Source: a virus | Strand: one strand, 5' to 3' | Length of the DNA: 25,760 nucleotides | IMG/VR virus record: IMGVR_UViG_3300034404_000004 | Location: 1-25,760 of that record | Part shown: positions 208 through 25,760 of the stretch, piece after piece | Numbering within the stretch: the first letter of the stretch is position 1 | Layout: each line of letters opens with the position of its first letter | The notes under the pieces: model-generated | The model's input: the letters and a program-made list of their open reading frames with translations, nothing else | Told to the model about the DNA's origin: nothing | Databases searched by the model: none | Made by a program: the position numbers and the translations under genes

Positions 208-221
208 CTGCAATTTTGCAG
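208..221 (+). repeat. CTGCAATTTTGCAG palindrome, exact copy (phage end)
   Basis: This exact copy lies in the non-coding end region, 7 bp before the 228-273 inverted end repeats. It is the only exact copy outside a gene. Confidence 0.8.
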
Positions 222-227
222 TCTGGG

Positions 228-246
228 GTGTCCCATGATTTTGTCA
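228..246 (-). repeat. End repeat, inverted copy
   Basis: This is an inverted copy of the 19-bp end repeat with 17 of 19 matches. Together with the direct copy at 255-273 it forms a large palindrome with an 8-bp loop (247-254). Confidence 0.7.
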
Positions 247-254
247 AACTTTTC

Positions 255-273
255 TGACAAAAAAATGGGACAC
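255..273 (+). repeat. End repeat, exact direct copy 2
   Basis: This is an exact copy of the 19-bp repeat at 105-123. It is the right arm of the 228-273 palindrome. Confidence 0.75.
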
Positions 274-305
274 TTTTTCATGGTGTTTTGGATTGGGTAA
301 GAATT

Positions 306-324
306 TGACAAAAAAATGGGACAC
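306..324 (+). repeat. End repeat, exact direct copy 3
   Basis: This is an exact copy of the 19-bp repeat, 201 bp inside copy 1. The four bases before it (AATT) also match those before copy 1, so the functional unit may be longer than 19 bp. Confidence 0.75.
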
Positions 325-355
325 CCCCCCTTCTGGGCTTGTTGATTTTCTAAGT

Positions 356-374
356 TTGTCCCGCATCGTTGTCA
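356..374 (-). repeat. Degenerate inverted end repeat
   Basis: The two ends of the 19-bp repeat (TGTCCC and TTGTCA) are kept at the right spacing in inverted orientation, but the middle seven bases differ. It lies just before the stop of the outermost gene. It may be a weak site or chance. Confidence 0.4.
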
Positions 375-379
375 AACTT

Positions 380-937: not shown

Positions 938-1540
938 CTACCAATATCTCCACCGCCCGTCTGGCCCACGGCGGTATTTGTCTGCGTATCTATATATCAA
1001 TAAGGAATATTCATAGTTGATTTCACAGGCACTCCTATATTGCTTGCATTCCGTCCTTACCCTCCACACACACACTTGTCCCCTTCTGCAATTTTGCAGA
1101 CAGCTTTTCCATTCCCACGCACCTGCTCGTCTGCATTCTCGGATAACCCAATCACCTCCGTTATAGCGTTGATAGACAATCCAGAGGCGGGAGGTGGGGT
1201 TGCTTTGGATAAGTGTGTTCAGATAATAGGTAAAGGCATAGAAGTGGTCTTTGCTGTGTGGCTTTGTGTAATCAGGGAATAGTGGGCGTAGCAATGGGTC
1301 AAGGAATTTAGGTGTCAATTGGAAAAATCCGACTGAACCGTGTCCATCCGCACTCTCCTTCCACCGACAAGAAGTCTCTTTCTCGGCGGTAGCTACGTTA
1401 TAGTGGGCTGGGTAGTCTTTAGCTATGTATTTTTCTGTTGCTTCCCTTATGGCTGGTTCAAGCTTCAAGCATCTGGGATTAGCCCAGAGCAAAGACAAGA
1501 CCGATGTAAAGAAGTAGAACAATGCTATAAATCTTGTCAT
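938..1540 (-). CDS. Secreted endolysin of the lytic transglycosylase (SLT) type
   Basis: This 200-residue protein should cleave peptidoglycan at the end of infection. Residues 1-20 form a hydrophobic signal segment ending LLWA, so it can reach the periplasm through the host Sec system without a hole. The SLT fold is shown by the catalytic Glu candidate in AEKETSC (Glu55), the following GSVGFFQLTP (residues 68-77, equivalent to the GxxGxxQ motif) and YQRYNGG near residue 125 in the place of the usual AYNAG motif. Several cysteines beyond residue 140 suggest disulphides. GGAGA precedes the ATG. The start overlaps the end of the holin gene, and spanin genes lie just upstream, completing a lysis cassette. 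Confidence 0.85.
   Translation of the reverse strand: MTRFIALFYFFTSVLSLLWANPRCLKLEPAIREATEKYIAKDYPAHYNVATAEKETSCRWKESADGHGSVGFFQLTPKFLDPLLRPLFPDYTKPHSKDHFYAFTYYLNTLIQSNPTSRLWIVYQRYNGGDWVIRECRRAGAWEWKSCLQNCRRGQVCVWRVRTECKQYRSACEINYEYSLLIYRYADKYRRGPDGRWRYW
1086..1099 (+). repeat. CTGCAATTTTGCAG palindrome, exact copy (in endolysin gene)
   Basis: This is an exact copy of the dispersed 14-bp interrupted palindrome (arms CTGCAA and TTGCAG, spacer TT). On the coding strand it reads Leu-Gln-Asn-Cys. Confidence 0.8.
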
Positions 1541-1757: not shown

Positions 1758-1993
1758 GTGTTAATCACCTCCCGCAGGATTTGGTTCTCCCTTTCAAGTC
1801 TGAACATGTAATTGAGTAAAGACTGCAATTTTTCAGTGTGTGGCTGGTCTGGTTTTATCACGGGTCTTTCTGTTTTTGGGATGTCGGGGACAGGGCATTT
1901 AACGATAACTTCCTTTTCTATCACTTGCACTTGTGGCTTCGTAGCACAGGCAAAGAGGAACAGACTAATTACTAAAACGCTTGCTCGCTTCAT
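1745..1993 (-). CDS. Outer-membrane spanin lipoprotein (Rz1-like)
   Basis: This 82-residue protein starts with a short lipoprotein signal whose lipobox is LFAC, so Cys15 would be lipidated and the protein anchored in the outer membrane. The mature part is proline-rich (about residues 34-53) and then helical, as in o-spanins. Its start lies inside the end of the preceding coiled-coil gene in another frame, the arrangement typical of Rz/Rz1 pairs. Together they fuse the inner and outer membranes in the last lysis step. GGAGATG precedes the ATG. Confidence 0.8.
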   Translation of the reverse strand: MKRASVLVISLFLFACATKPQVQVIEKEVIVKCPVPDIPKTERPVIKPDQPHTEKLQSLLNYMFRLERENQILREVINTCRQ

Positions 1994-2694: not shown

Positions 2695-2707
2695 ATTCAT
2701 ACCTCCT

Positions 2708-7796: not shown

Positions 7797-8289
7797 CCCC
7801 CCAAAGCTTGTTTTCTCCCTCTTCGTTTTCCCAACCTTTTAAGTAGAAATCCTTGCCTCGTTGGTTGTCCGGAGAGCTCCACTCGCTCCCTTTGGCATTT
7901 TTGATGTTGGGTAATTGTTGCCTGAATTGCAGTATTCCGTTCCACTGTTGACGGGACTGTTTGAATGCTTCGTAGTCCCGCTTTAGGTTCTCAATATTCT
8001 CTCCATTCCGTTCGTATATCTCTATCAACTCCCTCAGGTGCTTCCCGATTATGTATTTGTAGTCTGTAAATCTGTAGCTCTCCGGCGGCTGATTGTTCCA
8101 TATAGAGAGATACCATCCCATTAGGTGTTGTAGCTTCTTGCCGTCTTCTTTTTCCGTTTCCTTTTCCTTCATTTCCATCTCCAGTCTTGTCTTTAGTTCC
8201 ATTAGCACCTTGACCGCTTCCCTGATGTTTTTTTGCATAAGCAACTCTATAGCCTTCTCAATTTTTTTAAGGATTTGCCTCTCCGTCAT
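7762..8289 (-). CDS. Putative replication accessory protein
   Basis: This 175-residue protein starts with a helical, Glu/Lys-rich half (about residues 1-50). Then follows a region with YRFTDYKYIIGKHLRELI (near residue 72) and a long linker, ending in a Trp/Asp/Glu-rich acidic tail. The middle segment resembles primosome or replication-initiator accessory domains that pair with DnaC-type loaders, but this is a weak resemblance. ATGA overlap with the Zn-finger gene and overlap with the next gene place it in the replication operon. Confidence 0.5.
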   Translation of the reverse strand: MTERQILKKIEKAIELLMQKNIREAVKVLMELKTRLEMEMKEKETEKEDGKKLQHLMGWYLSIWNNQPPESYRFTDYKYIIGKHLRELIEIYERNGENIENLKRDYEAFKQSRQQWNGILQFRQQLPNIKNAKGSEWSSPDNQRGKDFYLKGWENEEGENKLWGDEDDEIPWLSK

Positions 8290-8804
8290 GCCACAGCCCT
8301 CCTTTGTCTCCTCATTTTTTTGAACTTACTTTTGATAGCCTCGGGGTGGCGGTTTAACTTTCTTGCGAGTTCCTGCAAAATTGCAGATTTGCATCCGTAT
8401 TGAGAAAGAGTTTCCCAGATAAGCTTCTCCTCCCACTCTTCATATCTCCGCCGTTCTTTCATCCCCTTTTCTCTCCGCATCTTCTCCAAAAACCTCTTCC
8501 TGTATTCCCTTTCGCATTGATTGCTGCAGTATTGGTCGCTGTTTTGGGTTGGAATGAATTTCTCTCCACAAATTCCGCATTTCCGCATCACCTTTTCTAC
8601 AGACTCGCCCGGAAAGCCAAACACGGGCGGGTCATCATTCAGGACTTGGAGGATGCCCGCCCTTACTTGTGCGTTTATCAGGCTCCTTACCTTCTCTTTT
8701 ACATACTGTCTGAGGAACGATGGCGGGTTGAGTTCCTTCAGCACCATCCACGGTGTGAAAGCCCTCAGTTTGAGCATGATTTCCCAGATCTTCCCGTCAG
8801 TCAT
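8286..8804 (-). CDS. DNA-binding protein with winged helix, zinc finger and SANT-like domain
   Basis: This 172-residue protein appears to have three parts. An N-terminal winged-helix-like part spans about residues 5-65. A zinc finger is formed by Cys76, Cys79, Cys93 and Cys97 (CGICG...YCSNQC), followed by a basic helix. A C-terminal helix-turn-helix of the SANT/homeodomain type lies around WEEKLIWETLSQYGCKSA and LARKLNRHPEAIKSKF. It lies between the MuB-like gene and the replication genes, with GGAGGTG before the ATG. A nucleic-acid-binding role in transposition or replication is likely, but the exact function is unknown. Confidence 0.65.
   Translation of the reverse strand: MTDGKIWEIMLKLRAFTPWMVLKELNPPSFLRQYVKEKVRSLINAQVRAGILQVLNDDPPVFGFPGESVEKVMRKCGICGEKFIPTQNSDQYCSNQCEREYRKRFLEKMRREKGMKERRRYEEWEEKLIWETLSQYGCKSAILQELARKLNRHPEAIKSKFKKMRRQRRAVA
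8373..8386 (-). repeat. CTGCAATTTTGCAG palindrome, exact copy (Zn-finger gene)
   Basis: This is an exact copy, reading CTGCAAAATTGCAG on the plus strand. On the coding strand it encodes Ala-Ile-Leu-Gln, a different frame from the copy in the endolysin gene. Confidence 0.8.
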
Positions 8805-8807
8805 GTT

Positions 8808-9497
8808 TCACCTCCCGAGGGCTTTGGCTATTTTGTCCAATGTTTCTGCCGTGGGTTCTAACTTCTGACTTTTTAAGGCTTGCAAGCAAATTGCTGTATC
8901 CAGTGTGGTCCAGCCTTTCTCTTTTGCAAAATTGAATATCTGCACTGGGTCTGCTTGTATGCGGTATTCTTTGACGAGGAAGGAGATTGTTTCTTGGGTC
9001 AATGGCTGTAATTCTTTTTTTATAGCGAACCGTTTGAATAAGCTGTGGTCGTGGGATGCGAGGAGTTTGGGAGTGGTCTGGTCTCCGAGGAAGAGGTAGC
9101 AAAAGCCCAATTCTTCATCTTCGGAGAGGTCTTTCAATTCATTCAGGATGTGCTGTTTTCTGAGTATTCTCTGTGCCTCATCCAATATAAGAATTGGTTT
9201 GAGGTTGTAATATAACAGGTGGTGTTTGATAAGGTCTAAGGTGCTTTCGTAGGTAGACCTCGCACCACACCCTAAGCTAAAGCCAATAAGCCGATATAAC
9301 CGCCCCATCGTTATCTCTCCGTCGGGGGCCTTCACATAGAATACGTCTGGCTCCCGTTTTGCTATCTTTTGTGCGGAGACAGTTTTACCTGTCCCCCATT
9401 TACCCCATATGATAGCGTGAAGGGGTATGGTTTGCTCTGCCCTAAGACGTCTTAGGGCTTGGATGGTTGTGGTTAGGACTTGTTCTGCGTGCGTCAT
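8808..9497 (-). CDS. MuB-like AAA+ transposition ATPase
   Basis: This 229-residue protein has Walker A GKWGTGKT (residues 32-39) and Walker B ILILDEAQRI (102-111), with a sensor region YLFLGD near residue 135. It follows the transposase gene, overlapping its stop as ATGA. This is the pattern of MuB/TnsC-type ATPases, which bind DNA, choose target sites and activate the transposase. It is shorter than Mu MuB (312 residues), and the first 25 residues leave little room for a separate N-terminal DNA-binding domain. GGAGGTGAGCA precedes the ATG in a 23-bp block shared with another early gene. Confidence 0.8.
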   Translation of the reverse strand: MTHAEQVLTTTIQALRRLRAEQTIPLHAIIWGKWGTGKTVSAQKIAKREPDVFYVKAPDGEITMGRLYRLIGFSLGCGARSTYESTLDLIKHHLLYYNLKPILILDEAQRILRKQHILNELKDLSEDEELGFCYLFLGDQTTPKLLASHDHSLFKRFAIKKELQPLTQETISFLVKEYRIQADPVQIFNFAKEKGWTTLDTAICLQALKSQKLEPTAETLDKIAKALGR

Positions 9498-9510
9498 TGC
9501 TCACCTCCTA
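9488..9510 (-). repeat. 23-bp translation-start repeat, copy 1
   Basis: A 23-bp block with GGAGGTGAGCA, ATG and the first codons (Met-Thr-His) is identical to 13388-13410, exactly 3900 bp away and in the same orientation. It is the start region of two unrelated early genes. Confidence 0.8.
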
Positions 9511-10912
9511 AAAAGAGTTTTATTGGGTCCAGCTCCTCCTCAGGTTGAGGAGCTGGTTGTGAGCTTGGCTCAGAACTGCTTAAAAGCTCTAAAAAGGTTG
9601 CGGTCTCTTTTTGTTGTTGTAGTTCTTGCTGTTCAATCTCAATTAGTTCTTCTTTTAGCTTTCTCTTTCTTCTTTCTATCCTCTTTTCCTTGTTCCTTAG
9701 TTCCTTTATCTCCGTTGGGTCAAGGCTGGGGACATCTTGAGAGATTAGGCGGGCTATTCCGAGGGGGCGGGTTTCTTTTTCGTCCCAGACTTCTAAGATT
9801 GTGGCGTTTTCAAGGTCCCGATAACAGACCACTTCAGGGCTCTTTCTCGTTCTACCTATTTCTCCAGCCCGCTCTTCAAATGGATAGACAAATTCATAAA
9901 CTAAGTTCTCAATTCTTATAGCGTTGTTCCTAACAGTCCTCACAAACCGTTCTCTGAAGGCTTTCCTGATTTCATCCTCTTCTACTTGTCTGTATTCAAC
10001 TGTTGAATGTAAAATTTCAGGGATTACGGGTTCGCTGAAGTGTTCAAATTTATGTTCAGACTTGTTATACATCTCCACAGCAGACCTTAAGGCGCCTTCA
10101 AATGTCGGGTGAGTGTTTGTGTAGTATCTCAGAAGGTCTTTTATATCTCTAAAGCTTCTCTCTATAAGCTTTTGATTTGGCGCATATGGTTTAGTTCTCA
10201 CTACTGGGATGTTTAAATACTCAAGCCCTCGTGTGATGAGTTCTGCCTTCAGGACTGCTTCGTTGTCTGTTATGATGCGTTCGGGTACCCCATACTCTCT
10301 AAATAGAGAGATTAAAAACCGTGCTACATCAAGTGAATTGAAAGCTTTGTTATAGTGTTGGGCTTGGGTGTCTTCTTTGACTTTTGCCACCATGCAGGAG
10401 AGGAAGCACCCGCTCCACCTCTCCCGCACGGCGAGAATAAAATACCTCTCCCCTCTCCATGAGTAGGCTGTGGCATCTATTTCCCATGTGGCTGGCTCCC
10501 TTTTTTGTTTCCCTTTTGGTTTTCTATACTCTGCCAGCTCTGACTTATCTCTTCGCTTTAACTCCAGTCTTTCCCAGCCGCCAAACCTCTCCTTAATTAC
10601 TTCCTCAAGCCTCCGTCTAAATGTCCGTTCACTCCTTATTCCTCTCGTTTGTAGATCAACTTCTAAAAGCTTGTATATTTGGACTATTGATAAAACCCTT
10701 GTTCTGCCTTTCTCTTCCTTGCTAAAGGTAAGAAGCTCTATCACCCTATCCCATATTTCGTCTTGGAGCACATCTTTTCGCTTCTGTTCTGCTTGTGATG
10801 GCTCCTTCACCCACCGTTCCACCGTGCTTTTTGGTATCCCTAAAACCCTTGCAATCCTCCTGATCGGGATACCAAGAGAGTAAAGCCGTAGGGCTTCTTT
10901 CCTCTTGTCCAT
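9494..10912 (-). CDS. DDE transposase (MuA/rve family)
   Basis: This 472-residue protein starts with a resolvase-like HTH (IPIRRIARVLGIPKSTVERW). It then has an RNase-H-fold integrase core with Asp146 (TWEIDATAY), Asp216 (IITDNEAVL) and Glu251 (NQKLIERSF). The spacing from second Asp to Glu is 35 residues, the classic D,D-35-E. The C-terminal part is basic, then Glu/Gln-rich, and may contact the MuB-like ATPase encoded next. It should cut and join the phage ends for integration and replicative transposition, acting on the repeats at 105-374 and at the unseen right end. TAGGAGGGCGG precedes the ATG. Confidence 0.9.
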   Translation of the reverse strand: MDKRKEALRLYSLGIPIRRIARVLGIPKSTVERWVKEPSQAEQKRKDVLQDEIWDRVIELLTFSKEEKGRTRVLSIVQIYKLLEVDLQTRGIRSERTFRRRLEEVIKERFGGWERLELKRRDKSELAEYRKPKGKQKREPATWEIDATAYSWRGERYFILAVRERWSGCFLSCMVAKVKEDTQAQHYNKAFNSLDVARFLISLFREYGVPERIITDNEAVLKAELITRGLEYLNIPVVRTKPYAPNQKLIERSFRDIKDLLRYYTNTHPTFEGALRSAVEMYNKSEHKFEHFSEPVIPEILHSTVEYRQVEEDEIRKAFRERFVRTVRNNAIRIENLVYEFVYPFEERAGEIGRTRKSPEVVCYRDLENATILEVWDEKETRPLGIARLISQDVPSLDPTEIKELRNKEKRIERRKRKLKEELIEIEQQELQQQKETATFLELLSSSEPSSQPAPQPEEELDPIKLFLGGEQ

Positions 10913-10922
10913 CTCCGCCCTC

Positions 10923-12578
10923 CTACCAGCCTCTTACAGCCTTTTTAGAGAACTCCTTCACTTTCTCGTAAATCTCATCTGCTATTTCAAACGCTTTTAC
11001 CCATCCCAACTTGACGCCCATATCCAATAGCAACTCTTCCAGTGCGTTCCTATACCAGTCTTCTATGTCCGGGGGTGGAGTTTTTTCTTTCTTTTCTTTT
11101 GCTTTTTTCTGCTCTTGTGCCTTCTTTTCAAGTTCTTCTTTATATCTCCTAAGGTCTTCCCAGTCCTCTTCGGTCATGCTTTCCTCTATTTCTTTCGCTA
11201 TTTGTTCTATCTTCGCCCAGTCTATTTGCGTTGTTTCTTCTGTTTCTTCTTTTAGCATCTCTTCTACCCTTTTTACTATCTCCTCTACCACCGCGTTAAC
11301 TGGTCTTAGCCTTTTCTCTTTAAGCTTTTGCAACACTCCTTCCTTTATCTTGGTTAACCTGCCCCACTTGTCTACATCCTTTACTTTCTCCTTTATTTCC
11401 TTCAACTCGTCTTCTGAGAGTGCGTCTGCTGTTGCCTCGGGGACTGCCTTATATACCTCCATCAATTTGTCTGCGTGTCTGTGGAGTATCTCCTCAATCT
11501 TCTCTTTGTTGATATACACAAATGTGTGGTCCATCCCTCCAAGTCTTGCCAAGTCTTCCCTTAATGTTCTCCACGTGTGGAATACATACTCAGGGTTAGC
11601 AAGGACTTTCTTAGCCTGTTCTAAAACTTCCCTCTCAAGCTTTTGCTCCTCTTCGTGTTCTTTCTTTAGTTTCTCCCATAAGGCTTGGGCTTTTTCAAAG
11701 AATACCTTGCGTGCTTTCAGGGATAGTTCTTTGTATGGATAGACGGTTATTAGGTAGTTTTTGACTTTTTCGTAGCTTGGACTGTCTATGAACCGTTTAA
11801 AATCTTTCCTAAGTGCCTCATTTAAAAACTTCAGAATGTCTCTGAGGTTCTGGTCTTTAACTACTTCGTTGAAGGGTTTGTCCTTTAACTCTCCCTCGTG
11901 TTCCTCTATGAACTCCGATAGGGCTTTAAAGCCCTCCTCGGTGGGGGTGCCGTCGGGGTTTATGAGGGTGGTGACAATCTGCAACTTTTGCAGGTTTTCA
12001 CCACTTCCCCCACCATACCACTTAACTATGGTAGAATGATCTACTCCAAGCATTGAAGCTATTTCTCTTGTGGATAAGCCCTGGTTCTTTAGTTCTAACG
12101 CTTGCCTTTTCAGTTCCTCATCCTTCGCCCTTCTCTTTACTCCCTGAACCCAATTGTAGATTGTCCGCTCTGAAACCCTAAACAGCTTTCTTAGCCTTTC
12201 TATCTCTACTCCGTCTGCATACAACAGCCTTGCCAGTTCTTTCTTTTCTTCCTTATCCAAGGGTATCCCATGGCTTGCGTTCTTCTCAATGGCCAATATG
12301 CGAGCTTCCAATTCGTTCTCCAGTTCTACCACTTCCGCTTTGATGGTGTCTTTCCCAAGCCTTTTGCTTGCAAGGAGTCTGTGCATGCCGTCAATAAGCC
12401 AGTAAATCCCATTTCCCTTATCCCATACTGTGATTGGTGGGAACTCCTGCCCTTCTGCCATCGCCTCTTGGTATTCCTGCACTTTCTCTTCTATGGTGTG
12501 GGTGTAAATACGGGGCAGTAAGCCCTGAATGACTTCAATTTTGGTTATTGGGACCTCAAAAACACCTTTGCTTCTCAT
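10923..12578 (-). CDS. ParB-like DNA-binding protein
   Basis: This 551-residue protein has an N-terminal ParB/Srx-like domain with LIDGMHRLLASKRLG (residues 61-75) and NASHGIPLDKEE (100-111). Two helix-turn-helices follow (LRKLFRVSERTIYNWV near 129-144 and LSTREIASMLGVDHSTIVKW near 168-187), then about 350 mostly helical, charged residues. The ParB-box Arg is kept in GMHR. It is much longer than usual ParB proteins (about 300 residues). It is the first gene after two terminators and directly precedes the transposase. It may organise phage DNA, regulate transcription or assist transposition. No ParA is visible in this window. GGAGGT lies 7 nt before the ATG. Confidence 0.75.
   Translation of the reverse strand: MRSKGVFEVPITKIEVIQGLLPRIYTHTIEEKVQEYQEAMAEGQEFPPITVWDKGNGIYWLIDGMHRLLASKRLGKDTIKAEVVELENELEARILAIEKNASHGIPLDKEEKKELARLLYADGVEIERLRKLFRVSERTIYNWVQGVKRRAKDEELKRQALELKNQGLSTREIASMLGVDHSTIVKWYGGGSGENLQKLQIVTTLINPDGTPTEEGFKALSEFIEEHEGELKDKPFNEVVKDQNLRDILKFLNEALRKDFKRFIDSPSYEKVKNYLITVYPYKELSLKARKVFFEKAQALWEKLKKEHEEEQKLEREVLEQAKKVLANPEYVFHTWRTLREDLARLGGMDHTFVYINKEKIEEILHRHADKLMEVYKAVPEATADALSEDELKEIKEKVKDVDKWGRLTKIKEGVLQKLKEKRLRPVNAVVEEIVKRVEEMLKEETEETTQIDWAKIEQIAKEIEESMTEEDWEDLRRYKEELEKKAQEQKKAKEKKEKTPPPDIEDWYRNALEELLLDMGVKLGWVKAFEIADEIYEKVKEFSKKAVRGW
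11979..11993 (+). repeat. Palindrome variant with 3-bp spacer (ParB-like gene)
   Basis: CTGCAACTTTTGCAG has the same arms as the dispersed palindrome but a CTT spacer in place of TT. Confidence 0.6.
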
Positions 12579-12611
12579 GTTCTATACCTCCTTTTTTGGT
12601 TTTTGCTTGAT

Positions 12612-12639
12612 AAAAAGCGGGAAGGCGTTGCGCCTTCCC
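12612..12639 (-). terminator. Intrinsic terminator 2 before the ParB-like gene
   Basis: A perfect 9-bp stem (GGGAAGGCG / CGCCTTCCC, loop of 3) at 12619-12639 is followed on the minus strand by CTTTTTA. It lies 34 nt upstream of the ParB-like start codon. Confidence 0.8.
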
Positions 12640-12674
12640 AAATGGCAACTGATAGGGAGGAAGAACCCTTTTGT

Positions 12675-12699
12675 AAAAAGGCGGGGCTTGGGACCCCGC
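12675..12699 (-). terminator. Intrinsic terminator 1 before the ParB-like gene
   Basis: A 6-bp GC-only stem (GCGGGG / CCCCGC, loop of 7) at 12681-12699 is followed on the minus strand by CTTTTTA. It is the first of two tandem terminators in the same gap. Confidence 0.75.
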
Positions 12700-12736
12700 A
12701 AGGGGAAGAGGGAGGAGGGGAGGGAAGCCATGAGCA

Positions 12737-13024
12737 TCATTTTCCCAGCCTGTAGAACAGGTGCCTCAACTTCTCGGCTAAATAGATGAGTTCCTGTTCG
12801 GATAGCTGGAAGTTGATTTTTGTGTATTCACCGCCCGTCCTTCCTTCGGTGATGGAGAGAATGACTTTAAACTCGCTTGATACCTGCACGCTAAGCTTTT
12901 TGTATGTGTCCCCACTTCCCTGATGGAAAAGGGATAAAATCTCTACCCACTTCCCGCCATCCTTCTTAGTCTCCTGCGGTTGTTGTGGCTGTGGCTGTTG
13001 CTGTGTGGGATATTTTTTGTTCAT
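12737..13024 (-). CDS. Unknown early protein with Gln/Pro-rich start
   Basis: This 95-residue protein has a Gln/Pro-rich disordered N-terminus. A compact domain follows, made of strands (YKKLSVQVSSEFKVILSITEG and YTKINFQLSEQEL) and one C-terminal helix. The strand-then-helix layout loosely recalls PC4-like single-strand DNA-binding domains, but this is only a shape guess. A GTG lies two codons upstream. The ATG at 13024 has AAGGAGG at 7 nt and overlaps the stop of the small membrane protein as ATGA, so I choose it. Tandem terminators follow the gene. Confidence 0.6.
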   Translation of the reverse strand: MNKKYPTQQQPQPQQPQETKKDGGKWVEILSLFHQGSGDTYKKLSVQVSSEFKVILSITEGRTGGEYTKINFQLSEQELIYLAEKLRHLFYRLGK

Positions 13025-13179
13025 TTGCACACCTCCTTAACTGTTTTACTTACTTCCTTAAGTATTGCCTCTGCCTGTCTGTTTTTGGCTTCAGCTATGA
13101 GGATTAACACAACAGAACAGAGAAGCATTAATAACGAAATAATCAATTGCAAGTCTCCTTCCTTCTCTGGAAGTCTCAT
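13021..13179 (-). CDS. 52-residue single-pass membrane protein
   Basis: This short gene fills the space between two early genes and is joined to both by ATGA overlaps, with GGGAGGTG before its ATG. It starts MRLPEKEGDLQ, has one hydrophobic helix (LIISLLMLLCSVVLILIA, about residues 12-29) and ends in a basic, helical tail. Such small early membrane proteins often act on host envelope functions or superinfection, but this one matches no family I know. The coupling on both sides is strong evidence that it is a real gene. Confidence 0.7.
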   Translation of the reverse strand: MRLPEKEGDLQLIISLLMLLCSVVLILIAEAKNRQAEAILKEVSKTVKEVCK

Positions 13180-13397
13180 GGTTTCACCTCCCATAATGGG
13201 ACAACCACCGCCAAGATACTGTCCCCGTCCCTTTCGTATTTCTTTACCTCATAAAGCCTTTCTCCAGAAGCATGCCTGACAGAAATGATTTCCCACGCCT
13301 TCACCCAGTGCCATTCATAGAATTGGAGATCTAAGACAAAAAATCTGTTGAACTGTCTTATCTTCAATGCTATATTATTCATATCTACGTGCGTCAT
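13176..13397 (-). CDS. Unknown small early protein
   Basis: This 73-residue protein is rich in aromatic residues (FNRFFVLDLQFYEWHWVKAWE) and ends in a strand-like DSILAVVVPLWEV. No motif is recognised. It is the second or third gene of the early transcript, with GGAGGTGAGCA in front. Its translation-start block is identical over 23 bp to that of the MuB-like gene. Its stop overlaps the start of the 52-residue membrane protein. Confidence 0.6.
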   Translation of the reverse strand: MTHVDMNNIALKIRQFNRFFVLDLQFYEWHWVKAWEIISVRHASGERLYEVKKYERDGDSILAVVVPLWEVKP

Positions 13398-13410
13398 TGC
13401 TCACCTCCTA
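13388..13410 (-). repeat. 23-bp translation-start repeat, copy 2
   Basis: This block is identical to 9488-9510. It covers the ribosome binding site, ATG and first codons. Confidence 0.8.
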
Positions 13411-13865
13411 TGAGAGGGTTTCCTCTCCCTCTCGGCTTTTTCTATGAGCTTCTTTTTCAGTTCGGCTTTCTTGAGTAGGAGTGTGTAAATAGCCTCCTCC
13501 ACTTCCTTCAAATCCTCTTCCAAGCTGTTGTCCTCGTCCACGAGCGCTTCTTCGGCGTCGTTGAGTTCTTTGAGGATTTCCTTAAATGGTACTTCCCTTT
13601 CCGCAGGGTATGGTTCAAGTTTATAACCAAGTCTATATGCCATTTCCTGCAGTGCCTTGAATGCCAACTCCGGCATGTGTTCGTGGATAATGAGTAGCGT
13701 GTCCATTGCATAGGACAGCGGGTCTCGCCTATGGAAGGGATTGTCCTCATCCATAGACCAGGCGTAAATAAGCTTTTCTGACCTCCCCAAACGGGAAGCC
13801 AACGGATACGGGCTTTTCTTCCGGAGGAACTCCCGGAAGACCCAGTTAAAGCTTGAGTGCCTCAT
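13401..13865 (-). CDS. Putative early regulator (CII/CP76-like)
   Basis: This 154-residue protein has an N-terminal part (about residues 15-80) with ASRLGRSEKLIYAWSMDE, a helix-turn-helix-like segment. A long helical, acidic tail (LKELNDAEEALVDEDNSL, then a Lys/Glu coiled coil) could oligomerise. The layout resembles phage CII-type (CP76) regulators. It is the second gene of the early transcript after the Cro-like gene, with AGGAGG 8 nt before the ATG. The assignment rests on the HTH-like pattern and position. Confidence 0.55.
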   Translation of the reverse strand: MRHSSFNWVFREFLRKKSPYPLASRLGRSEKLIYAWSMDEDNPFHRRDPLSYAMDTLLIIHEHMPELAFKALQEMAYRLGYKLEPYPAEREVPFKEILKELNDAEEALVDEDNSLEEDLKEVEEAIYTLLLKKAELKKKLIEKAERERKPSHRR

Positions 13866-13898
13866 GGTTTTACCTCCTTTATGGGATTTTGTTTTTTG

Positions 13899-14162
13899 CT
13901 ACCTTTTTTTGCTGGACGTAGGGTTAGCGGTCTTGTTTTCTACACGCTTAGTTCTTAAATATTCCTCGTAAACTTGCGGGAGGTCAGGAAGATGCAAAAA
14001 CTCTGCAATTTTGCAGACGAGAGGGCGGGAGATTTTCTTACCAGACAGCACACTAAACAAATAGACATGATTAACATTGAGAATGTTCGCCAGCTTGCTA
14101 AGACTTATTCCCTGCCTCTTACCTGCATCTTTTACAATATCCCTTATGAGGTTAGAACCCAT
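13899..14162 (-). CDS. Cro-like repressor, first early gene
   Basis: This 87-residue protein has a classic small HTH: GISLSKLANILNVNHVYLFSVLSG followed by KISRPLVCKIAEFLHLP. It is the first gene transcribed from the early promoter, opposite the CI-type repressor, so a Cro or Ner role fits. The ATG has no Shine-Dalgarno and lies 7 nt after the TATAAT -10, so its mRNA is probably leaderless. Confidence 0.75.
   Translation of the reverse strand: MGSNLIRDIVKDAGKRQGISLSKLANILNVNHVYLFSVLSGKKISRPLVCKIAEFLHLPDLPQVYEEYLRTKRVENKTANPTSSKKR
14003..14016 (+). repeat. CTGCAATTTTGCAG palindrome, exact copy (Cro-like gene)
   Basis: This exact copy lies inside the Cro-like gene, where the coding strand reads Cys-Lys-Ile-Ala. 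That is the third of the three possible frames used by copies of this motif. Confidence 0.8.
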
Positions 14163-14197
14163 AGGAGATATTATACCCCATCTGGGATGTTTGTCAA
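14163..14197 (-). promoter_or_regulatory. Early promoter (near-consensus sigma-70 type)
   Basis: On the minus strand TTGACA (14197-14192) and TATAAT (14175-14170) are 16 bp apart. The ATG of the Cro-like gene starts 7 nt after the -10, so transcription should begin at or next to the start codon. Confidence 0.85.
14174..14189. promoter_or_regulatory. Repressor operator O2 (imperfect palindrome)
   Basis: TACCCCATCTGGGATG fills the early promoter spacer and touches its -10. It matches O1 at 12 of 16 positions. A protein bound here would block early transcription. Confidence 0.7.
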
Positions 14198-14218
14198 GAG
14201 GAAGATGGTGGATATTAT
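14191..14218 (+). promoter_or_regulatory. Repressor-gene promoter, overlapping the early promoter
   Basis: TTGTCA (14191-14196) and TATTAT (14213-14218) are 16 bp apart on the plus strand. The -35 overlaps the -35 of the divergent early promoter almost base for base, so the two promoters compete. The predicted transcript starts about 15 nt before the repressor ATG. Confidence 0.65.
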
Positions 14219-14231
14219 CCCAAGTGGGATA
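14216..14231. promoter_or_regulatory. Repressor operator O1 (perfect palindrome)
   Basis: TATCCCAAGTGGGATA is a perfect inverted repeat (7-2-7). It overlaps the -10 of the repressor promoter, suggesting autoregulation. Its centre is 42 bp (four helical turns) from the centre of O2. Confidence 0.75.
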
Positions 14232-14240
14232 GGTGGAGGG

Positions 14241-14927
14241 ATGGACAAAAAAGCGGTAGGTGAAAGAATACGCTTAATCCGAAAGGCTTTAGGATTAACG
14301 CAGGCGGAGATGGGGGAAAAGATCGGGCGATCATGGAAGACGATCAACAGATGGGAGGCAGGAGAAAGAGATGTCCCCGACACTGCTTTAAAACTCATCT
14401 CCTCAACCTTCGGCGTCTCCTACCAATGGCTAAAAACAGGGCAGGGGGAGATGTGGGAGAGGAGAGAAAAAACACTATTAGAAGAGTTAGAAGCAAAAAC
14501 AAAAGAACTCCTCGAAAAGCTTGTGCGTATTCCAGTTGTAGGGCGTGCGGGGGCAGGATTTCCAGAAAGTCCCGCAGACATTGAAGCGGTGGGCTATGTT
14601 CTTGTTAGTAAGGAAACATTCCAGAAGGGCGGAAAGTTTTCAGTTCAAGTGTATGGCGATAGCATGGAACCTACACTGCACGATGGAGATTTTGTGGTGT
14701 TCAAGGCTTATGTGGGTGATGGGTCAGATATTCCGAGCGGGAAAGTGGTAGTCGTGCGGAATTACTCTGGGGAGTTGATTGTGAAAAGGCTTACAAGAGT
14801 GAATGGTTCCATTGTGCTAGCTTCTGATAATCCGAAGTATCCGCCCATTCTGCCAGAGCAGTTTAAAACTGAAGACTTGCGGATTGTAGGGGTAGCGGTT
14901 AAAATAGTAAGAGAAATTGAAGTGTAG
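14241..14927 (+). CDS. CI/LexA-type phage repressor (XRE HTH plus S24 peptidase domain)
   Basis: This 228-residue protein has an XRE helix-turn-helix at about residues 5-60 (LGLTQAEMGEKIGRSWKTINRW). The C-terminal S24 domain has a cleavage region GRAGAGFP (101-108), catalytic Ser141 in GDSMEPTL and catalytic Lys182 in LIVKRL. It should keep the prophage silent and self-cleave on RecA activation. The frame is open far upstream to 13974, but that stretch is the opposite strand of the Cro-like gene. I choose the ATG at 14241, after GGTGGAGGG and downstream of the predicted promoter. An in-frame ATG at 14205 is less likely because it lies between promoter elements. Confidence 0.85.
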   Translation: MDKKAVGERIRLIRKALGLTQAEMGEKIGRSWKTINRWEAGERDVPDTALKLISSTFGVSYQWLKTGQGEMWERREKTLLEELEAKTKELLEKLVRIPVVGRAGAGFPESPADIEAVGYVLVSKETFQKGGKFSVQVYGDSMEPTLHDGDFVVFKAYVGDGSDIPSGKVVVVRNYSGELIVKRLTRVNGSIVLASDNPKYPPILPEQFKTEDLRIVGVAVKIVREIEV

Positions 14928-17201: not shown

Positions 17202-19851
17202 ACAGCTTGTATTAGAGATCAGGGCAGAAGTCGGACAGCTAAGGGCACAGCTGGATGAACTGAGAAACAGACTACAGGGTATAGACACAAGCTGGACTGA
17301 AAATTTGCAGAAAAACATAGAACAAAGCACTCAGTCTGCTAAACAGCTTGCAAGTCAGTTTGAAAACATAGCATCTACTATACGGACAATAGCATTGTCT
17401 TTACCTTTTCTGGGCTTCATCAAAGAGGGTATTGAATTCAATAAACAGATAGAACAAAGTCGCATTGGCTTTGCGGGTATTCTTACATCTATCGCACAGA
17501 TAAGAAACGAGCAAGGCAGGCTTGTGGAGGGTGCAGAGAAATACGCAAACGCAGTCAAGCTGTCAAATCAACTTCTCAATGAACTACGCATTGCAGGGTT
17601 GCAGACTGTCCTAACCTTCCAAGACCTTGTTGAAATAGCCCAAGGTATAATGGCACCTTTTCTGTCGGCAGGCGGTAATCTGAAAGAGTTCTCTCAGTTT
17701 GTGGTGCTACTCTCTAACGCAGTTGCTGCCATAGGACTACCCATGAACCAAGTAGTGCAGGAGGCAAGAGACCTCTTAATGGGCACAATTGATATGAACT
17801 CTCAACTGGCAAGGTCCCTTGGGATTACCAACGAAATGGTCAATAGATGGAGGGAACAGGGAACACTCTTTCAAGAATTGACTGCAAGATTGCAGGGTTT
17901 TCAGTTTGCGGGTAAAGATGTAGAAGGAAGCTTTACAGGACTACTCGCTAAAGCTAAAGAAGTTTTTCAGGTCTTTGCGGGCATGGCTACTGCTAAAGTC
18001 TTTGAGGCTATAAAGAAAGACTTGGATGAGTTTATAGCGAAGTTTTTAGTAGTCAAAGACGGGAAAATAGAGCTCTCCGTTGAAGGGCAAGAACTCGTAG
18101 AGAAGATTTCAGAAACACTAACAAATCTTTATAACATCATAAGCACTCTCGTGAAAGTAGTAGGCACACTCACAGTAGAATTCGGCGGGTTTATAACAAA
18201 AGCATTAGAGATATACATCGTAATAAAAGCTGTTTCTGCTTTGAAGTCTGCTATTGAAGCCTTAATCGGGAGCATGAGAACTCTCGGCACGGTGGGCGCA
18301 ACTGCAATAACGGGATTAGGCGCTCTGTTCTCACGGCTAAATATCATAGTGGCAACTGCGCTTGTGGGCTGGAACTTGGGCGAGATGCTTCGGGAGTGGC
18401 TGGATGAACAGACTAAAGGAGCATTCACTAAGTGGCTAATCAGAATAGAGACATTCATTATAGATGGAATTAACAGGCTGAGGGCTTTGATTGGTAAAAT
18501 TCCCGGTCTCGGTCGCTTTCTCGGTATCTCGGAGGAGGAACTGCAGGAAAGCTTAAAAATCACTGCAAAGATGCGGGAGATGGCGGAGGAAGATGCAAGG
18601 AGATACAAAGAAGCACAGCAAAAAGCAGCGCAAGAGATAAACCAAGCAGGGCAGATAACCGCACAGGCTATAAGACAAGTCTCTAAACAGCAAGTAGAGG
18701 AGATTTTGAAGTCCCTCAAGGAGCAAGAGCAAACAATTGCAAAATTGCAAGAGATAAAGCAAAAACTGAAAGACAGTCTATCCCTTCAGGATGTTATGAC
18801 TGCATTACAAGATGAAACTAAAGCATTCTCTCAAAAACTTGAACTCTCTTTAGACACTTCAGATGTAGAAGACAGAATAGACACGCTAAAGAGAAAGCTT
18901 AGAGAACTGCAAGACTTGCTAAAAGAAAACTTAGAAGACGAAGCACGCAAGCAAGTGTTAAGAGAAATATTGCAAACTGAACTTGAGATAGCACAAGCTA
19001 CAGTGGAGGGCTATCAGAGGAGAAAACAGGCACTGGAAGAATTTCTCAGGGATGCTTGGGCTAAAGAACAAGACTACGCACGCAAGGTAGTAGAACTCAC
19101 AAGGGAAAGGAACAATCTACTCGCACAGCTTGAGAAAGAAAGGCAAGACCTAATCAGCAAGTTTATTCCAAAAGAACTGCAAGTTCAGCTTGGATTTACA
19201 ACACAACAAGAACCAATCACGCGAGTAGCAAACATCCTAAACCTCGTCCAACAGGCAAGAGATCTCGCAAGTCAAATACAGCAAGCAGTCGCACAAGGCT
19301 TAGCACCGCAACAGATAGAAATTCTCAAGATGCGATATCAAGATTTAGTTCAGCAAATCAGGGACGGTTTAAAACAGCTAACTCCTGAGGAGGTTATACA
19401 AGCCTATCAGTCGCTTACATACTCTTCTAAAGAATCACTCACAAGGCTGTTTACAAACATAACAGGAGATATGCAGAAGGCAAATCAGCTTGTAGAACAA
19501 CTGTATGAAATATACCAAAGGATGCCCACCTCTCTTGCAGCGGCAGAGGGTGTGGACTTTGGTAGGCTGTTTGGTGCTACTTTTGTTGATTCTGTAATGA
19601 AACAGCTACAGCAAATGCAAGCAAGCGTGTCTGATAGCTTCATACAACAAGCACAACAACTTGAGAACTTCTACGCACAGCAGGTAAGCAAGATTTCTCA
19701 GATGATTATACAACTTGAGAATTTGAAGCCTCGCATAGAACTTGACATGTCCGCCGCAGAAGCGCAGATACAAAGTTTGAACGGTAGAAAGATAGTGATA
19801 TATGCAGACATTGTGAATTCTCAAACGGGCGAAGCGTTGAGGGTGAGATAA
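17188..19851 (+). CDS. Tape measure protein
   Basis: This 887-residue protein is the longest in the window and follows the frameshifted chaperones. It has an N-terminal coiled coil and a tape-measure-type domain containing VVQEARDLLMGTIDMNSQLARSL (split here over residues near 190-215). A hydrophobic stretch at about residues 310-405 is followed by long Gln/Glu-rich coiled coils to the end. At roughly 0.15 nm per residue it predicts a tail of about 130 nm. A TTG at 17182 is in frame. I choose the ATG at 17188 because GAGGAG lies 7 nt upstream. Confidence 0.85.
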   Translation: MAISEQLVLEIRAEVGQLRAQLDELRNRLQGIDTSWTENLQKNIEQSTQSAKQLASQFENIASTIRTIALSLPFLGFIKEGIEFNKQIEQSRIGFAGILTSIAQIRNEQGRLVEGAEKYANAVKLSNQLLNELRIAGLQTVLTFQDLVEIAQGIMAPFLSAGGNLKEFSQFVVLLSNAVAAIGLPMNQVVQEARDLLMGTIDMNSQLARSLGITNEMVNRWREQGTLFQELTARLQGFQFAGKDVEGSFTGLLAKAKEVFQVFAGMATAKVFEAIKKDLDEFIAKFLVVKDGKIELSVEGQELVEKISETLTNLYNIISTLVKVVGTLTVEFGGFITKALEIYIVIKAVSALKSAIEALIGSMRTLGTVGATAITGLGALFSRLNIIVATALVGWNLGEMLREWLDEQTKGAFTKWLIRIETFIIDGINRLRALIGKIPGLGRFLGISEEELQESLKITAKMREMAEEDARRYKEAQQKAAQEINQAGQITAQAIRQVSKQQVEEILKSLKEQEQTIAKLQEIKQKLKDSLSLQDVMTALQDETKAFSQKLELSLDTSDVEDRIDTLKRKLRELQDLLKENLEDEARKQVLREILQTELEIAQATVEGYQRRKQALEEFLRDAWAKEQDYARKVVELTRERNNLLAQLEKERQDLISKFIPKELQVQLGFTTQQEPITRVANILNLVQQARDLASQIQQAVAQGLAPQQIEILKMRYQDLVQQIRDGLKQLTPEEVIQAYQSLTYSSKESLTRLFTNITGDMQKANQLVEQLYEIYQRMPTSLAAAEGVDFGRLFGATFVDSVMKQLQQMQASVSDSFIQQAQQLENFYAQQVSKISQMIIQLENLKPRIELDMSAAEAQIQSLNGRKIVIYADIVNSQTGEALRVR
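18737..18750 (+). repeat. Palindrome variant (tape-measure gene)
   Basis: TTGCAAAATTGCAA differs from the dispersed palindrome only in its two outermost bases, and the exchange keeps its symmetry. Confidence 0.5.
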
Positions 19852-19853
19852 AG

Positions 19854-20588
19854 ATGGCGGTGCAAATAGGAACTATAACGCTTAACGACGCTTGGATACG
19901 GAACAAGTGGGGTGGGCGGGTTTCTGCTTCTACTATCAAAAAACAAGCTACAACTCAAAAAATCAATTCACTCATCCTTCCACCGTGCAGCGCTAAAAGC
20001 AAAGAGGAAAGAAGGAGTGTTCTCTATGCAATAGACGGAACAGAATACATATCAAACTGCAATTCTGCAGTAGAAAGTTCGCCACCCACGGGTTCAGTGT
20101 CCGTGTATAGTTCATCTCCGGGCTCCGCACAGGTGGGAGAAAACATCCACATTGTGGTTAATATGGAATGGCTTATCTTCCGTGCAATAGACATATACGG
20201 CAGACTTTATAAACTCACAGAGTCAGACATAATCACAGTGAGAATCACAGACGAATACGATCGCTATGTGATGAAGTATGTATTCTGCAAAGAAGACGGC
20301 ACGGAATATTACAGAGGCTACATCTCTCTCAATGTGCAAATAGAAGAAGAAAGCAAAGACAGTTCAGAAAAGGAAGTCGTCATAAACACTTGCACAAGTT
20401 CGCAAGCGAGGGCGCTCGGGCTCATGCTGGGGACAAAGACTGTTATAGCTGACGAGGATGTGTCTTTCTATGCGCTGATCACTGAGGTCAACCTTGAGTA
20501 TGTAGCAGGCGATATGGTGGATACCGCAACAAGGATAAGGCAAGGCGTGGATATTTACAAGGGAACGGTAAGGTTTGTGGTGCTATGA
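19854..20588 (+). CDS. Putative distal tail protein
   Basis: This 244-residue protein occupies the slot right after the tape measure, where siphoviruses encode the distal tail (Dit) protein. It starts with a strand-rich segment (IGTITLNDAWIRNKWGGRV), has a Ser/Pro-rich middle and a C-terminal beta region. No motif proves the role. The stop overlaps the next start as ATGA, coupling it to the hub-like protein. Confidence 0.55.
   Translation: MAVQIGTITLNDAWIRNKWGGRVSASTIKKQATTQKINSLILPPCSAKSKEERRSVLYAIDGTEYISNCNSAVESSPPTGSVSVYSSSPGSAQVGENIHIVVNMEWLIFRAIDIYGRLYKLTESDIITVRITDEYDRYVMKYVFCKEDGTEYYRGYISLNVQIEEESKDSSEKEVVINTCTSSQARALGLMLGTKTVIADEDVSFYALITEVNLEYVAGDMVDTATRIRQGVDIYKGTVRFVVL
20057..20070 (+). 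repeat. Palindrome variant, one mismatch (distal tail gene)
   Basis: CTGCAATTCTGCAG differs from the dispersed motif at one position. Confidence 0.6.
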
Positions 20589-23274: not shown

Positions 23275-23278
23275 GCCA

Positions 23279-23325
23279 CGCAAAATAGGAAAACTCGCCA
23301 AGCCATCGCTTCTATATTCCATCAT
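23279..23325 (+). promoter_or_regulatory. Late promoter for packaging operon (leaderless)
   Basis: The box CGCAAAATAGGAAAA (23279-23293) has TATATTC starting 34 nt from its first base (23313) and an ATG at 23326 without a Shine-Dalgarno. This is the same layout as the tail promoter. Confidence 0.75.
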
Positions 23326-23535
23326 ATGCGTATTACTGCAAAGCGGGTATGTGAGTTTTTACGCAGGATGAAAGAACTGCAAAATTGCAGTTTCCGGACA
23401 GAGAGATTGTCTGAAAAAGAAAAGCTTGTCTTCCTCACAGTGCAAATTTCAGACCGAGAATACGAAGGAGTAGGCATCACCGCTCGCTTGGCTTTAGAGG
23501 ATTTGATGAGGAATGTCTTAGAGGTGGAAGAGTGA
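23326..23535 (+). CDS. Small unknown protein, first gene of late operon 3
   Basis: This 69-residue protein has a basic start (MRITAKRVCEFLRRMKEL), a strand-like middle (KLVFLTVQISDREYEGVG) and a C-terminal helix. The ATG has no ribosome binding site and lies 7 nt after the -10, so it is probably translated from a leaderless mRNA. It contains an exact copy of the dispersed palindrome (23377-23390). Its stop overlaps the next start (TGATG). No family is recognised. Confidence 0.65.
   Translation: MRITAKRVCEFLRRMKELQNCSFRTERLSEKEKLVFLTVQISDREYEGVGITARLALEDLMRNVLEVEE
23377..23390 (-). repeat. CTGCAATTTTGCAG palindrome, exact copy (operon 3 first gene)
   Basis: This exact copy reads CTGCAAAATTGCAG on the plus strand and codes Leu-Gln-Asn-Cys. 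Confidence 0.8.
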
Positions 23536-23846
23536 TGGAACAGCTTTTGACACATCCCGCTATTATCGTCTTTGCAGTCTCCTCGTTCGTGGCAATCGTG
23601 ATCAACTACGCAATCATAAAGACTACGATGGCAAACATGATGACAACGCTGGAACAACTTCAAAAAGGCTTAGAGGAAGAAAAGGAAAAGAGCGCAGAGA
23701 TTGAGAAGATGATGTTGAAAGAGTATCTGAGAAAAGAAGACTTTCTCGCATTCCAGAACAAGGTAGAGGCACGCATGGAGATGAAGTTGGAGAGGCTGGA
23801 GGAAAAGATAGAAAGACTTTTATACAAGCTGGAGGCTAAGCAATGA
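23535..23846 (+). CDS. DUF2730-like membrane-anchored coiled-coil protein (Mu gp25/26 region)
   Basis: This 103-residue protein has one N-terminal membrane helix (IIVFAVSSFVAIVINYAII, about residues 8-26) and then a long Glu/Lys/Met coiled coil. Mu-like phages encode a protein of this shape just before the winged-helix and terminase genes, and the same order follows here. The in-frame GTG at 23532 precedes the ATG I use. GAGGTGG lies upstream. The function in the family is not known. Confidence 0.7.
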   Translation: MEQLLTHPAIIVFAVSSFVAIVINYAIIKTTMANMMTTLEQLQKGLEEEKEKSAEIEKMMLKEYLRKEDFLAFQNKVEARMEMKLERLEEKIERLLYKLEAKQ

Positions 23847-24130
23847 GAAAGCAAGTCAATTATCTCATTTTGAAGTTTCTTGAACAAGTGTATCCGGACA
23901 GCTTGACAGTCAAAATGATTGAAGCGCTACTGGCGGACTGGAGGATATTCACAGACAGTAAAAAACTGCTTGAGAAGAACATCAAATACTTACTTGAAAA
24001 AGGCTACATAGAAGTGCTTGAAGTTGAACTGCCCGCCCATCAAACAAAAATCCAAAAACTAAGACTAACCGCCAAGGGCAAAGCTTTGATGGAAAAGGAG
24101 TTCATAGATGAACAAGTGGAGGAAGTCTAA
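23843..24130 (+). CDS. Winged-helix protein before terminase (Mu-like conserved gene)
   Basis: This 95-residue protein looks like a winged helix: NYLILKFLEQVYPDSLTVKMI, then a recognition-helix-like segment (SKKLLEKNIKYLLEKGYIEV), then a wing and LRLTAKGKALME. Mu-like phages carry such a small winged-helix protein between the DUF2730 and small terminase genes. It is coupled by ATGA to the previous gene and by TAATG to the next. It may help recognise phage DNA for packaging or regulate late genes. Confidence 0.65.
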   Translation: MRKQVNYLILKFLEQVYPDSLTVKMIEALLADWRIFTDSKKLLEKNIKYLLEKGYIEVLEVELPAHQTKIQKLRLTAKGKALMEKEFIDEQVEEV

Positions 24131-24639
24131 TGCCCAGAAGGCACTCTCTTGATAGATACCCTGAAGCGAAAGAATACGCAGTAAAGGAATACGAAAGAGG
24201 GAAAACCCTTAGAGAATTAGAACAAGAGATAAAAATCAAGTTCCCACAAGCCCAAGCATCCAGATCCTCAATTCACAGACTAATCAGAAAGCTAAAGCCC
24301 CTGCTGGAACTTAAAAGAAGCGGACTACTGTCTGATGAGGACCTTGATACATTCCAACAATCCCAGACCCTTGCAACTATTGCAACAGGCTTGCTTTTAG
24401 AGGTCATAGCAGAATGGCAAGAGAAGGGAGAGGTGGAAGACGCAAAGATAGATGCACTCATGAGGCTTGTGCATACTGCAAGCAATCTCTCACGGAGCAG
24501 TGCATACATAGAAAAGACAAAAACTCAGCTAATAGAACACACAGAAAAGGTGCTTGAAAAAGTAGCAAAAACTTTAGCAAAACACTTAGATGAAGAGCTT
24601 GCAAAACGCATCATTGCGGAGCTAAAGCATGAGCTATAA
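24130..24639 (+). CDS. Small terminase subunit (DUF3486 / Mu gp27-like)
   Basis: This 169-residue protein starts with a basic segment and an HTH-like region (YPEAKEYAVKEYERGKTLREL, SRSSIHRLIRKL), followed by a helical oligomerisation part (LATIATGLLLEVIAEWQ). That plan and the place just before the large terminase fit the DUF3486 small terminases of Mu-like phages. It would bind phage DNA and dock the large subunit for headful packaging. GGAGGAAG precedes the ATG, and the end overlaps the large subunit start by 11 bp. Confidence 0.75.
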   Translation: MPRRHSLDRYPEAKEYAVKEYERGKTLRELEQEIKIKFPQAQASRSSIHRLIRKLKPLLELKRSGLLSDEDLDTFQQSQTLATIATGLLLEVIAEWQEKGEVEDAKIDALMRLVHTASNLSRSSAYIEKTKTQLIEHTEKVLEKVAKTLAKHLDEELAKRIIAELKHEL

Positions 24640-25760
24640 GGAAAAGGCGGTCAGCAGAGTTTTAGAGAGAGTTCTCATTTCAGAGGCGGACAAAGATAGA
24701 AAAGAGCGAGCAAGGAACGACTTTGCTTTCTTTTGCCAAACCTACCTTCCGCACATCTTCAGAAAACCTTTTGCACCATTTCAGTTAGAAATCATCAGCT
24801 TTTTAGAGAACCCAGACATGAAAAGAGTAGTTGTGGCAGCGCCGAGGGAACACGGAAAGACATCTCTCATATATCTGGGCTATGTTTTATGGTCTATCCT
24901 CTACGGAAAGCACAAGTTCATAGTCTGCATCGGAGCATCAGAACAGAGGGCGAAGGAACAACTGGAGGATATTCGGTTAGAGCTTGAAAACAATCCTGCA
25001 ATTTTGCAGGATTTCGGAGAGGTGATAAAGCGGGCTACAGTGGAGAGGATAGACACGGTGCACACTACAGTGATTTCACGAGGTGCAGGGCAGAAGCTGA
25101 GAGGTTTAGTCAAGCGTGGAGAAAGACCCGATTTAGTCATACTTGACGACATAGAAAGCGAAGAACACGCAAACTCTAAATCTCTCAGAGACAAGCTAAA
25201 GAAGTGGTTTTATAGGGTGGTGATGGGTTTATCTCAGAACGCAAAAATCTTTGTGATCGGAACCATCCTTCACTACGACTCACTGCTTAACGAACTCATC
25301 ACAAGAGGACAGGAGCTTGGCTGGTTTGCTAAGAAATACAAAGCCATCACCGACGAGGGCAAGCCCTTGCATCCATACCTTTGGACACTGGAAGCACTGG
25401 AGAAAAAGAAGCAAGAAATCGGAAGCTATGCGTTTGCTTCTGAGTATATGAACGAGCCCCTGTCCGACGAGGACAGAATTTTCAGACCTGAATGGATTAA
25501 GTATTACGAGGAAAAACTTGACTTAAGCAAGCTTGACATCGTGGCGGGCGTAGACCCAAGCACGGGTAAGGAAAAGGGAGACTACACCGCAATAGCGGTG
25601 CTTGGTAGGGACAGGGAGACAGGACACCTATATTCCTTGTTTATATATAATAAGCGTGCCACTCCTAACGAGCTGATAGACACCCTCATCTCCGTCCAGC
25701 TAACCTTTAAACCTTCCCTCATCGTCTTTGAAGAAGTAGCTTTTCAGGAGGTATACAGAA
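24629..25760 (+). CDS. Large terminase subunit (Mu gp28-type), 5' part
   Basis: The window holds the first 377 residues and no stop codon. The ATPase half has Walker A APREHGKTS (residues 71-79), Walker B DLVILDDIE (168-176) and a coupling segment FVIGTILHYDS (208-218). The nuclease half begins with AGVDPSTGK (Asp309) and has LIVFEEV (Glu368/369) as the second acidic site. It is the motor that pumps DNA into the head and cuts it. The gene carries an exact dispersed palindrome at 24996-25009. The portal and other head genes should follow outside the window. Confidence 0.85.
   Translation, partial: MSYKEKAVSRVLERVLISEADKDRKERARNDFAFFCQTYLPHIFRKPFAPFQLEIISFLENPDMKRVVVAAPREHGKTSLIYLGYVLWSILYGKHKFIVCIGASEQRAKEQLEDIRLELENNPAILQDFGEVIKRATVERIDTVHTTVISRGAGQKLRGLVKRGERPDLVILDDIESEEHANSKSLRDKLKKWFYRVVMGLSQNAKIFVIGTILHYDSLLNELITRGQELGWFAKKYKAITDEGKPLHPYLWTLEALEKKKQEIGSYAFASEYMNEPLSDEDRIFRPEWIKYYEEKLDLSKLDIVAGVDPSTGKEKGDYTAIAVLGRDRETGHLYSLFIYNKRATPNELIDTLISVQLTFKPSLIVFEEVAFQEVYR
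24996..25009 (+). repeat. CTGCAATTTTGCAG palindrome, exact copy (large terminase gene)
   Basis: This exact copy codes Ala-Ile-Leu-Gln in the terminase frame. Confidence 0.8.

Follow-up and report, generated by a model that had tools for sequence, protein, structure and literature searches.

Dispersed 14-bp palindromes in a Mu-like prophage of the Aquificaceae, probable binding sites of a ParB-like protein with two HTH motifs

What does a temperate phage do with a 14-bp palindrome that recurs, letter for letter, inside genes, in an intergenic gap and in the non-coding end of its genome? The question is raised by a stretch of 25,760 nucleotides (hereafter the window), a virus record whose first ~100 bases belong to the host gene polA and which then continues as a Mu-like phage. 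In this study, we propose from comparison of ~40 related viruses and prophages that the phage's own ParB-like protein probably binds the palindromes, with strong nested sites in the parB gene and at some phage ends. The gene order runs from the end repeats through a lysozyme-like gene, a MuB-like ATPase, a MuA-like transposase, the ParB-like gene and small early genes to a divergent CI-like repressor and the structural genes. The MuA-type transposase and the MuB-type ATPase (moderate family matches), together with transposase repeats at the ends, place the phage among the Mu-like phages; the window covers the greater part of its genome, a transposable prophage of Thermocrinis/Aquificaceae, which are hot-spring bacteria. 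The host gene flanking one relative matches Thermocrinis, and a complete relative is present as a 31-kb prophage in genome G048. A tandem array of ~11 copies of a unit of ~24 bases (TCGGGGTGACAGA...) was also seen, at L213:6145-6400.

The motif has a 6-2-6 structure, CTGCAA-NN-TTGCAG, with TT or AA at its centre. The six exact copies reported in a preliminary description of this DNA were all recovered (Table 1); none appeared in 100 dinucleotide shuffles of the window, of which the motif is the most over-represented 14-mer (6 seen vs 0.001 expected, order-2 Markov). At up to two mismatches there are 23 strand-matches vs 0.29 expected, and of the 4,096 possible six-base arms with a 2-nt spacing CTGCAA ranks first. 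The copies had been described as lying in both orientations; the sites are real, but the orientation merely reflects whether the centre of the dyad is TT or AA. Among 222 sites the centre is TT in 84 and AA in 62 (146 of 222 together), and site 208 has TT in some phages and AA in others, which fits a DNA dyad rather than a protein or RNA feature. Of the near copies listed, those at 1823 and 20057 each have 11 of 12 arm bases; the list missed the site at 17882 (CTGCAAGATTGCAG), whose arms are perfect, and it counted as a plain near copy the site at 11979, which is a 15-bp variant with a 3-nt centre and forms the core of a larger element. Placement within genes holds for four of the six exact copies, which read LQN, KIA and AILQ as had been claimed; sites 208 and 23377 lie outside genes. 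In the muB-muA-parB operon (window 8387-14002) the 14-mer is absent except for the nested site in parB. Relatives keep the sites of the window at an identity of 0.929 vs 0.808 for nearby 14-mers, a value reached by 0 of 300 null sets that take related phages as independent, and 47 of 58 homologous places in relatives are still sites.

The 14-mer is a phage feature, absent from bacterial chromosomes save for rare copies. The 64 Aquificaceae genomes hold eight exact copies, six of them in the G048 prophage, one in a phage remnant in G013 and one in G051. Counting the motif in a host chromosome, as the preliminary description had advised, gave 18 sites in the 31-kb prophage of G048 vs 6 in the remaining 1.7 Mb (at most one arm mismatch), which marks it as phage-specific. 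The 14-mer or a 1-mismatch form is present in 11 of 11 contigs found via the transposase, and the motif core in 16 of 17 further contigs found via ParB; ParB as a query against the genome contigs gave no matches. In G013 the genome's only exact 14-mer is borne by a ~1.9-kb element (L111:568-2460) that carries the repeats of the two phage ends together with a few genes of the left end, beside a tRNA gene, and that is a mini version or remnant of the window phage. Two features had been overlooked, namely the nested element in parB and the sites at fixed places close to the ends of the phage. The left end of the window phage, G002, G006 and G148 has a 14-mer at 105-107 bp from the terminal repeat; at the right end of G001, G004 and G048 there is one ~146 bp in.

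Table 1. Positions of the palindromic sites and of the genes and elements discussed in the text (window coordinates).
Feature	Position	Strand	Remarks
Transposase-type end repeats TTTGACAAAAAAATGGGACAC	103..324		103(+), 228(-), 253(+), 304(+)
Exact site	208..221	+	Left phage end, between terminal transposase-type repeat (103) and next (228); non-coding
Exact site	1086..1099	+	Within lysozyme-like gene 938-1540
Site, 11/12 arm bases	1823..1836	+	99% identical in 8 relatives
Exact site	8373..8386	-	Within gene 8286-8804; 96% identical in 14 relatives
MuB-like AAA ATPase	8808..9497	-	
MuA-like transposase	9494..10912	-	Next gene after parB, same operon
ParB-like protein, proposed binder	10923..12578	-	ParB/Srx N-domain, HTH1, HTH2, long helical C-part
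Nested site in parB	11968..12004	-	Outer arms GTGGTGA/TCACCAC, inner CTGCAA-AAG-TTGCAG; poorly predicted linker
HTH2, residues 153-187	12018..12122	-	Proposed reader of outer arms
HTH1, residues 126-146	12141..12203	-	Proposed reader of CTGCAA/TTGCAG
Exact site	14003..14016	+	Within small HTH (Cro-like) early gene 13899-14162
Probable repressor operator TATCCCAAGTGGGATA	14216..14231		Unlike dispersed motif
CI-like repressor (HTH_3 + S24 peptidase)	14241..14927	+	Rejected as motif binder
Site, 11/12 arm bases	17297..17310	+	
Site, perfect arms, centre GA, CTGCAAGATTGCAG	17882..17895	+	
Site, 11/12 arm bases	20057..20070	+	
Exact site	23377..23390	-	Intergenic
Exact site	24996..25009	+	Within terminase-like gene

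Three candidates had been put forward for the motif (a parS-like site for the ParB-like protein, repressor stoperators and a host-wide signal), and it is the first, as a putative binding site, that is supported by covariation with HTH1. Both fold and family comparison assign a ParB/Srx N-domain to the protein. Its N-terminal 210 residues, modelled with a pLDDT of 82, match Noc (Z 15.4 over 96 residues, the N-domain), ParB and KorB (Z 14.0 over 136 residues, HTH1 included). Since it scores 21.7 bits against the curated TIGR00180 cut-off of 58.45, we call it ParB-like and not a standard ParB. The CTP-motif positions, GERR and NxxR in ParB, read GxHR and NxxHG here, and both are invariant in 25 relatives. 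No ParA ATPase partner was found among the proteins scanned, the window stopping short of the right end of the phage, and named phages yielded only two weak matches to the ParB-like protein.

Every motif-bearing phage with a readable HTH1 has the helix [SA][EQ]RTxY[NY]W, and motif-less relatives have SERTIYR, SLRTVYNW, SSDTVRKW or SDRTIRRW. The preliminary description held that relatives keeping ParB and lacking the motif would speak against the pairing; such phages do occur (G055, G164, G101, G141 and G028c), but the recognition helix of HTH1 is altered in their ParB proteins, as are the inner arms in parB wherever the site can be found, which favours the pairing over its refutation. The inner arms go with the type of HTH1, being CTGCAA/TTGCAA in general, TTGACA in G055 and G164, TTTGAAA in G101 and TTACC in G144, G078 and, more weakly, G092. 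In the motif-less relatives the inner arms of the parB site are not comparably dispersed, G144 with its few TTACC sites excepted, and when these phages were searched de novo for dispersed palindromes of another sequence, weak candidates alone came up; dispersal is therefore a feature of the motif-bearing clade. In G144 TTACC-type sites also lie just upstream of the repressor gene, and a pair of them elsewhere, 47 bp apart, has a spacing like that of the pair in parB (L190:1751, 15365, 15412; L189:16176, 16223, for all of these sites).

The larger element that contains site 11979 lies in parB itself. Its general core is the 15-bp CTGCAA-AAA-TTGCAG (or TTGCAA variants) flanked by outer inverted arms, the centre thus being 3 nt long as against 2 nt in the 14-mer. 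It follows directly after HTH2 in 22 of the 22 parB genes of motif-bearing phages that have that stretch, G163 being left out because its contig stops before it. The element reads LQKLQ or PAKIA, depending on the frame, and encodes a linker (residues 189-203) of low model confidence. The mean best nested-palindrome score is 11.2 in parB vs 6.6-7.6 in muA, muB or an ATPase gene; the site is weak in the parB of G092, G094 and G141 and was not found in that of G028c.

The outer arms covary with the HTH2 helix, with a partial Mantel r of 0.36 exceeded in 0 of 20,000 permutations (1 of 20,000 without three duplicates), in a test that takes related phages as independent and whose input sequences were entered by hand; N-domain identity has an r of -0.03 with the outer arms. 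The strongest cases are pairs of phages that agree in HTH2 helix and outer arms and differ in HTH1 and inner arms, namely G003 and G101 (QGTISKW, TATTCC) and G148 and G164 (PKQT, AGTCC), and further G002 and G157, which come from different ParB lineages and both combine VGRxTISDW with TTGGCGG. As the HTH2 DNA adjoins the nested site, linkage could yield part of this covariation. However, nested copies with the same outer arms are found elsewhere in the same phage in G158 (35 of 35 bases), G152 and G156, and these copies, at the phage ends, are not explicable by linkage. One end site of G158 has the outer arms of the parB site of G154, and G154 has one whose arms are close to those of G158 (L209:233, 307; L202:315, 18950); these end sites are possibly a case of cross-recognition between phages.

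Taken together, we propose that HTH1 of a ParB dimer would read CTGCAA-NN-TTGCAG and HTH2 the additional outer arms of the nested site. On this view the nested site, which is found in parB and in several relatives also close to the ends, would be a strong, phage-specific loading site. The 14-mers have no outer arms and would be weaker sites, read by HTH1 only, at which ParB is held or re-loaded along the phage DNA; it may slide there as a CTP clamp, in the manner of KorB or Noc.

Binding of the 14-mers by another shared phage protein, such as MuA, MuB or the 172-aa zinc-finger protein, is improbable. It would agree with the position of the 14-mer among the transposase repeats of both ends and with the MuA tree, in which the motif-bearing phages form one clade (support 0.974). 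The ParB tree does not show them as one clade, so that common ancestry and function are told apart only in part, and the trees likewise single out ParB over MuA as the tracking protein only in part. Against such a binder, the end repeats differ by subgroup (TTTGACAAAAAAATGGGACAC vs TTTTTCAAAAAAATGCAACAC) while the motif is unchanged, and the site inside parB would be left unexplained by MuA, MuB or the zinc-finger protein. Moreover, G160-162 keep the motif with a ParB 0.71-0.73 identical to that of other motif-bearing phages, whereas their MuA, MuB, repressor and other shared proteins, the zinc-finger protein among them, are only 0.35-0.54 identical and nearly as diverged as those of motif-less phages.

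It is rather less likely still that the CI-like repressor binds the 14-mers as stoperators and blocks transcription across the prophage. Mycobacteriophage L5 has such stoperators, many dispersed sites on a temperate phage that are asymmetric and bound by the repressor. An HTH_3 repressor could read a 14-bp dyad and the early control region holds one site (14003), but the repressor helix and the probable operators change across phages and the 14-mer stays constant. These operators are TATCCCANNTGGGATA in the window phage and G001, TACACNNNNNNGTGTA in G002, TRYGCAANNTTGCRYA in G003, G006 and G048, and quite different palindromes in G153, G156 and G157. Within window 14163-14240 and its counterparts in relatives, the probable operators shift in step with the repressor helix in three clear classes. 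The dispersed sites thus do not match the repressor's own operator.

An RNA or single-strand hairpin in place of a protein site is a shade more doubtful again. The nested arms pair in every copy, as an RNA stem would, and the copies in parB share one orientation. However, the dispersed 14-mers have outer arms hardly more often than chance (3.6% vs 2.3%), they lie on both strands relative to genes and also in untranslated ends, and the outer arms track the HTH2 helix. Lastly, a host-wide signal (uptake, recombination or a HIP1-like palindrome) is next to impossible, as 61 of the 64 Aquificaceae genomes lack any exact copy, host density is near zero and no point in its favour was found.

Several known systems come close to the one proposed here. 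To our knowledge, KorB has neither nested outer arms nor a site in its own gene that is swapped together with an HTH. KorB of plasmid RK2 likewise belongs to the ParB family and has its OB sites scattered over a mobile element, though with one HTH in the matched region and a 16-bp OB, as against two HTHs and 14-bp sites here (PMC11790492). Noc, a ParB relative, has ~70 discrete NBS palindromes, but on the host chromosome of B. subtilis, with a role in cell division, a 16-bp NBS and a single HTH (PMC4331003, PMC8429893). In P1 ParB/parS two different DNA motifs are likewise read by two modules, the second by a dimer domain rather than a second HTH and at a single plasmid locus (PMC5002424). In the ParB/Noc specificity switch the choice of palindrome depends on few HTH residues, as we suggest for HTH1, but there is no second, independently varying HTH (PMC7383237). 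Mu-like phages such as vB_ThpS-P1 have the same parB-muA-muB order, with a ParB in a transposable phage, and no sites are described there (PMC5488378). A limited search of the literature found no earlier description of such sites, and on the sequence comparison our best reading is that a tandem-HTH ParB with nested and dispersed sites would be a new variant among ParB/parS-type systems.

With regard to its role, we rank self-marking in transposition first and KorB-like transcription control close behind. A coat of ParB may label the phage DNA as self while it transposes replicatively, a tentative view taken because parB shares an operon with muA and muB and because the 14-mer is fixed among the transposase repeats of both ends. 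Transcription control of the KorB type, somewhat less likely, is suggested because the operon has its nested site in parB, upstream of muA and muB. A part in partition or in some other process seems less likely again. In an equally speculative extension, a two-HTH ParB would tell its own genome from others through a constant inner code (HTH1) and a fast-changing outer code (HTH2) whose site travels with HTH2 in the parB gene; sites at the ends would carry its own code and those of other phages, and dispersed HTH1 sites would coat the genome against self-integration.

The protection of the whole Mu genome from self-integration is a subject on which there is 'clearly more to be learned' (PMC7350765). 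Protection by a ParB coat, if true, would bear on this 'Mu genome immunity', which becomes testable in a phage where the sites of a single protein are mapped over the whole genome. The proposed sites also suggest a function for the ParB-like genes found beside muA and muB in certain transposable phages, and two HTH helices varying with two nested sets of arms may serve as a natural data set for the protein-DNA recognition code.
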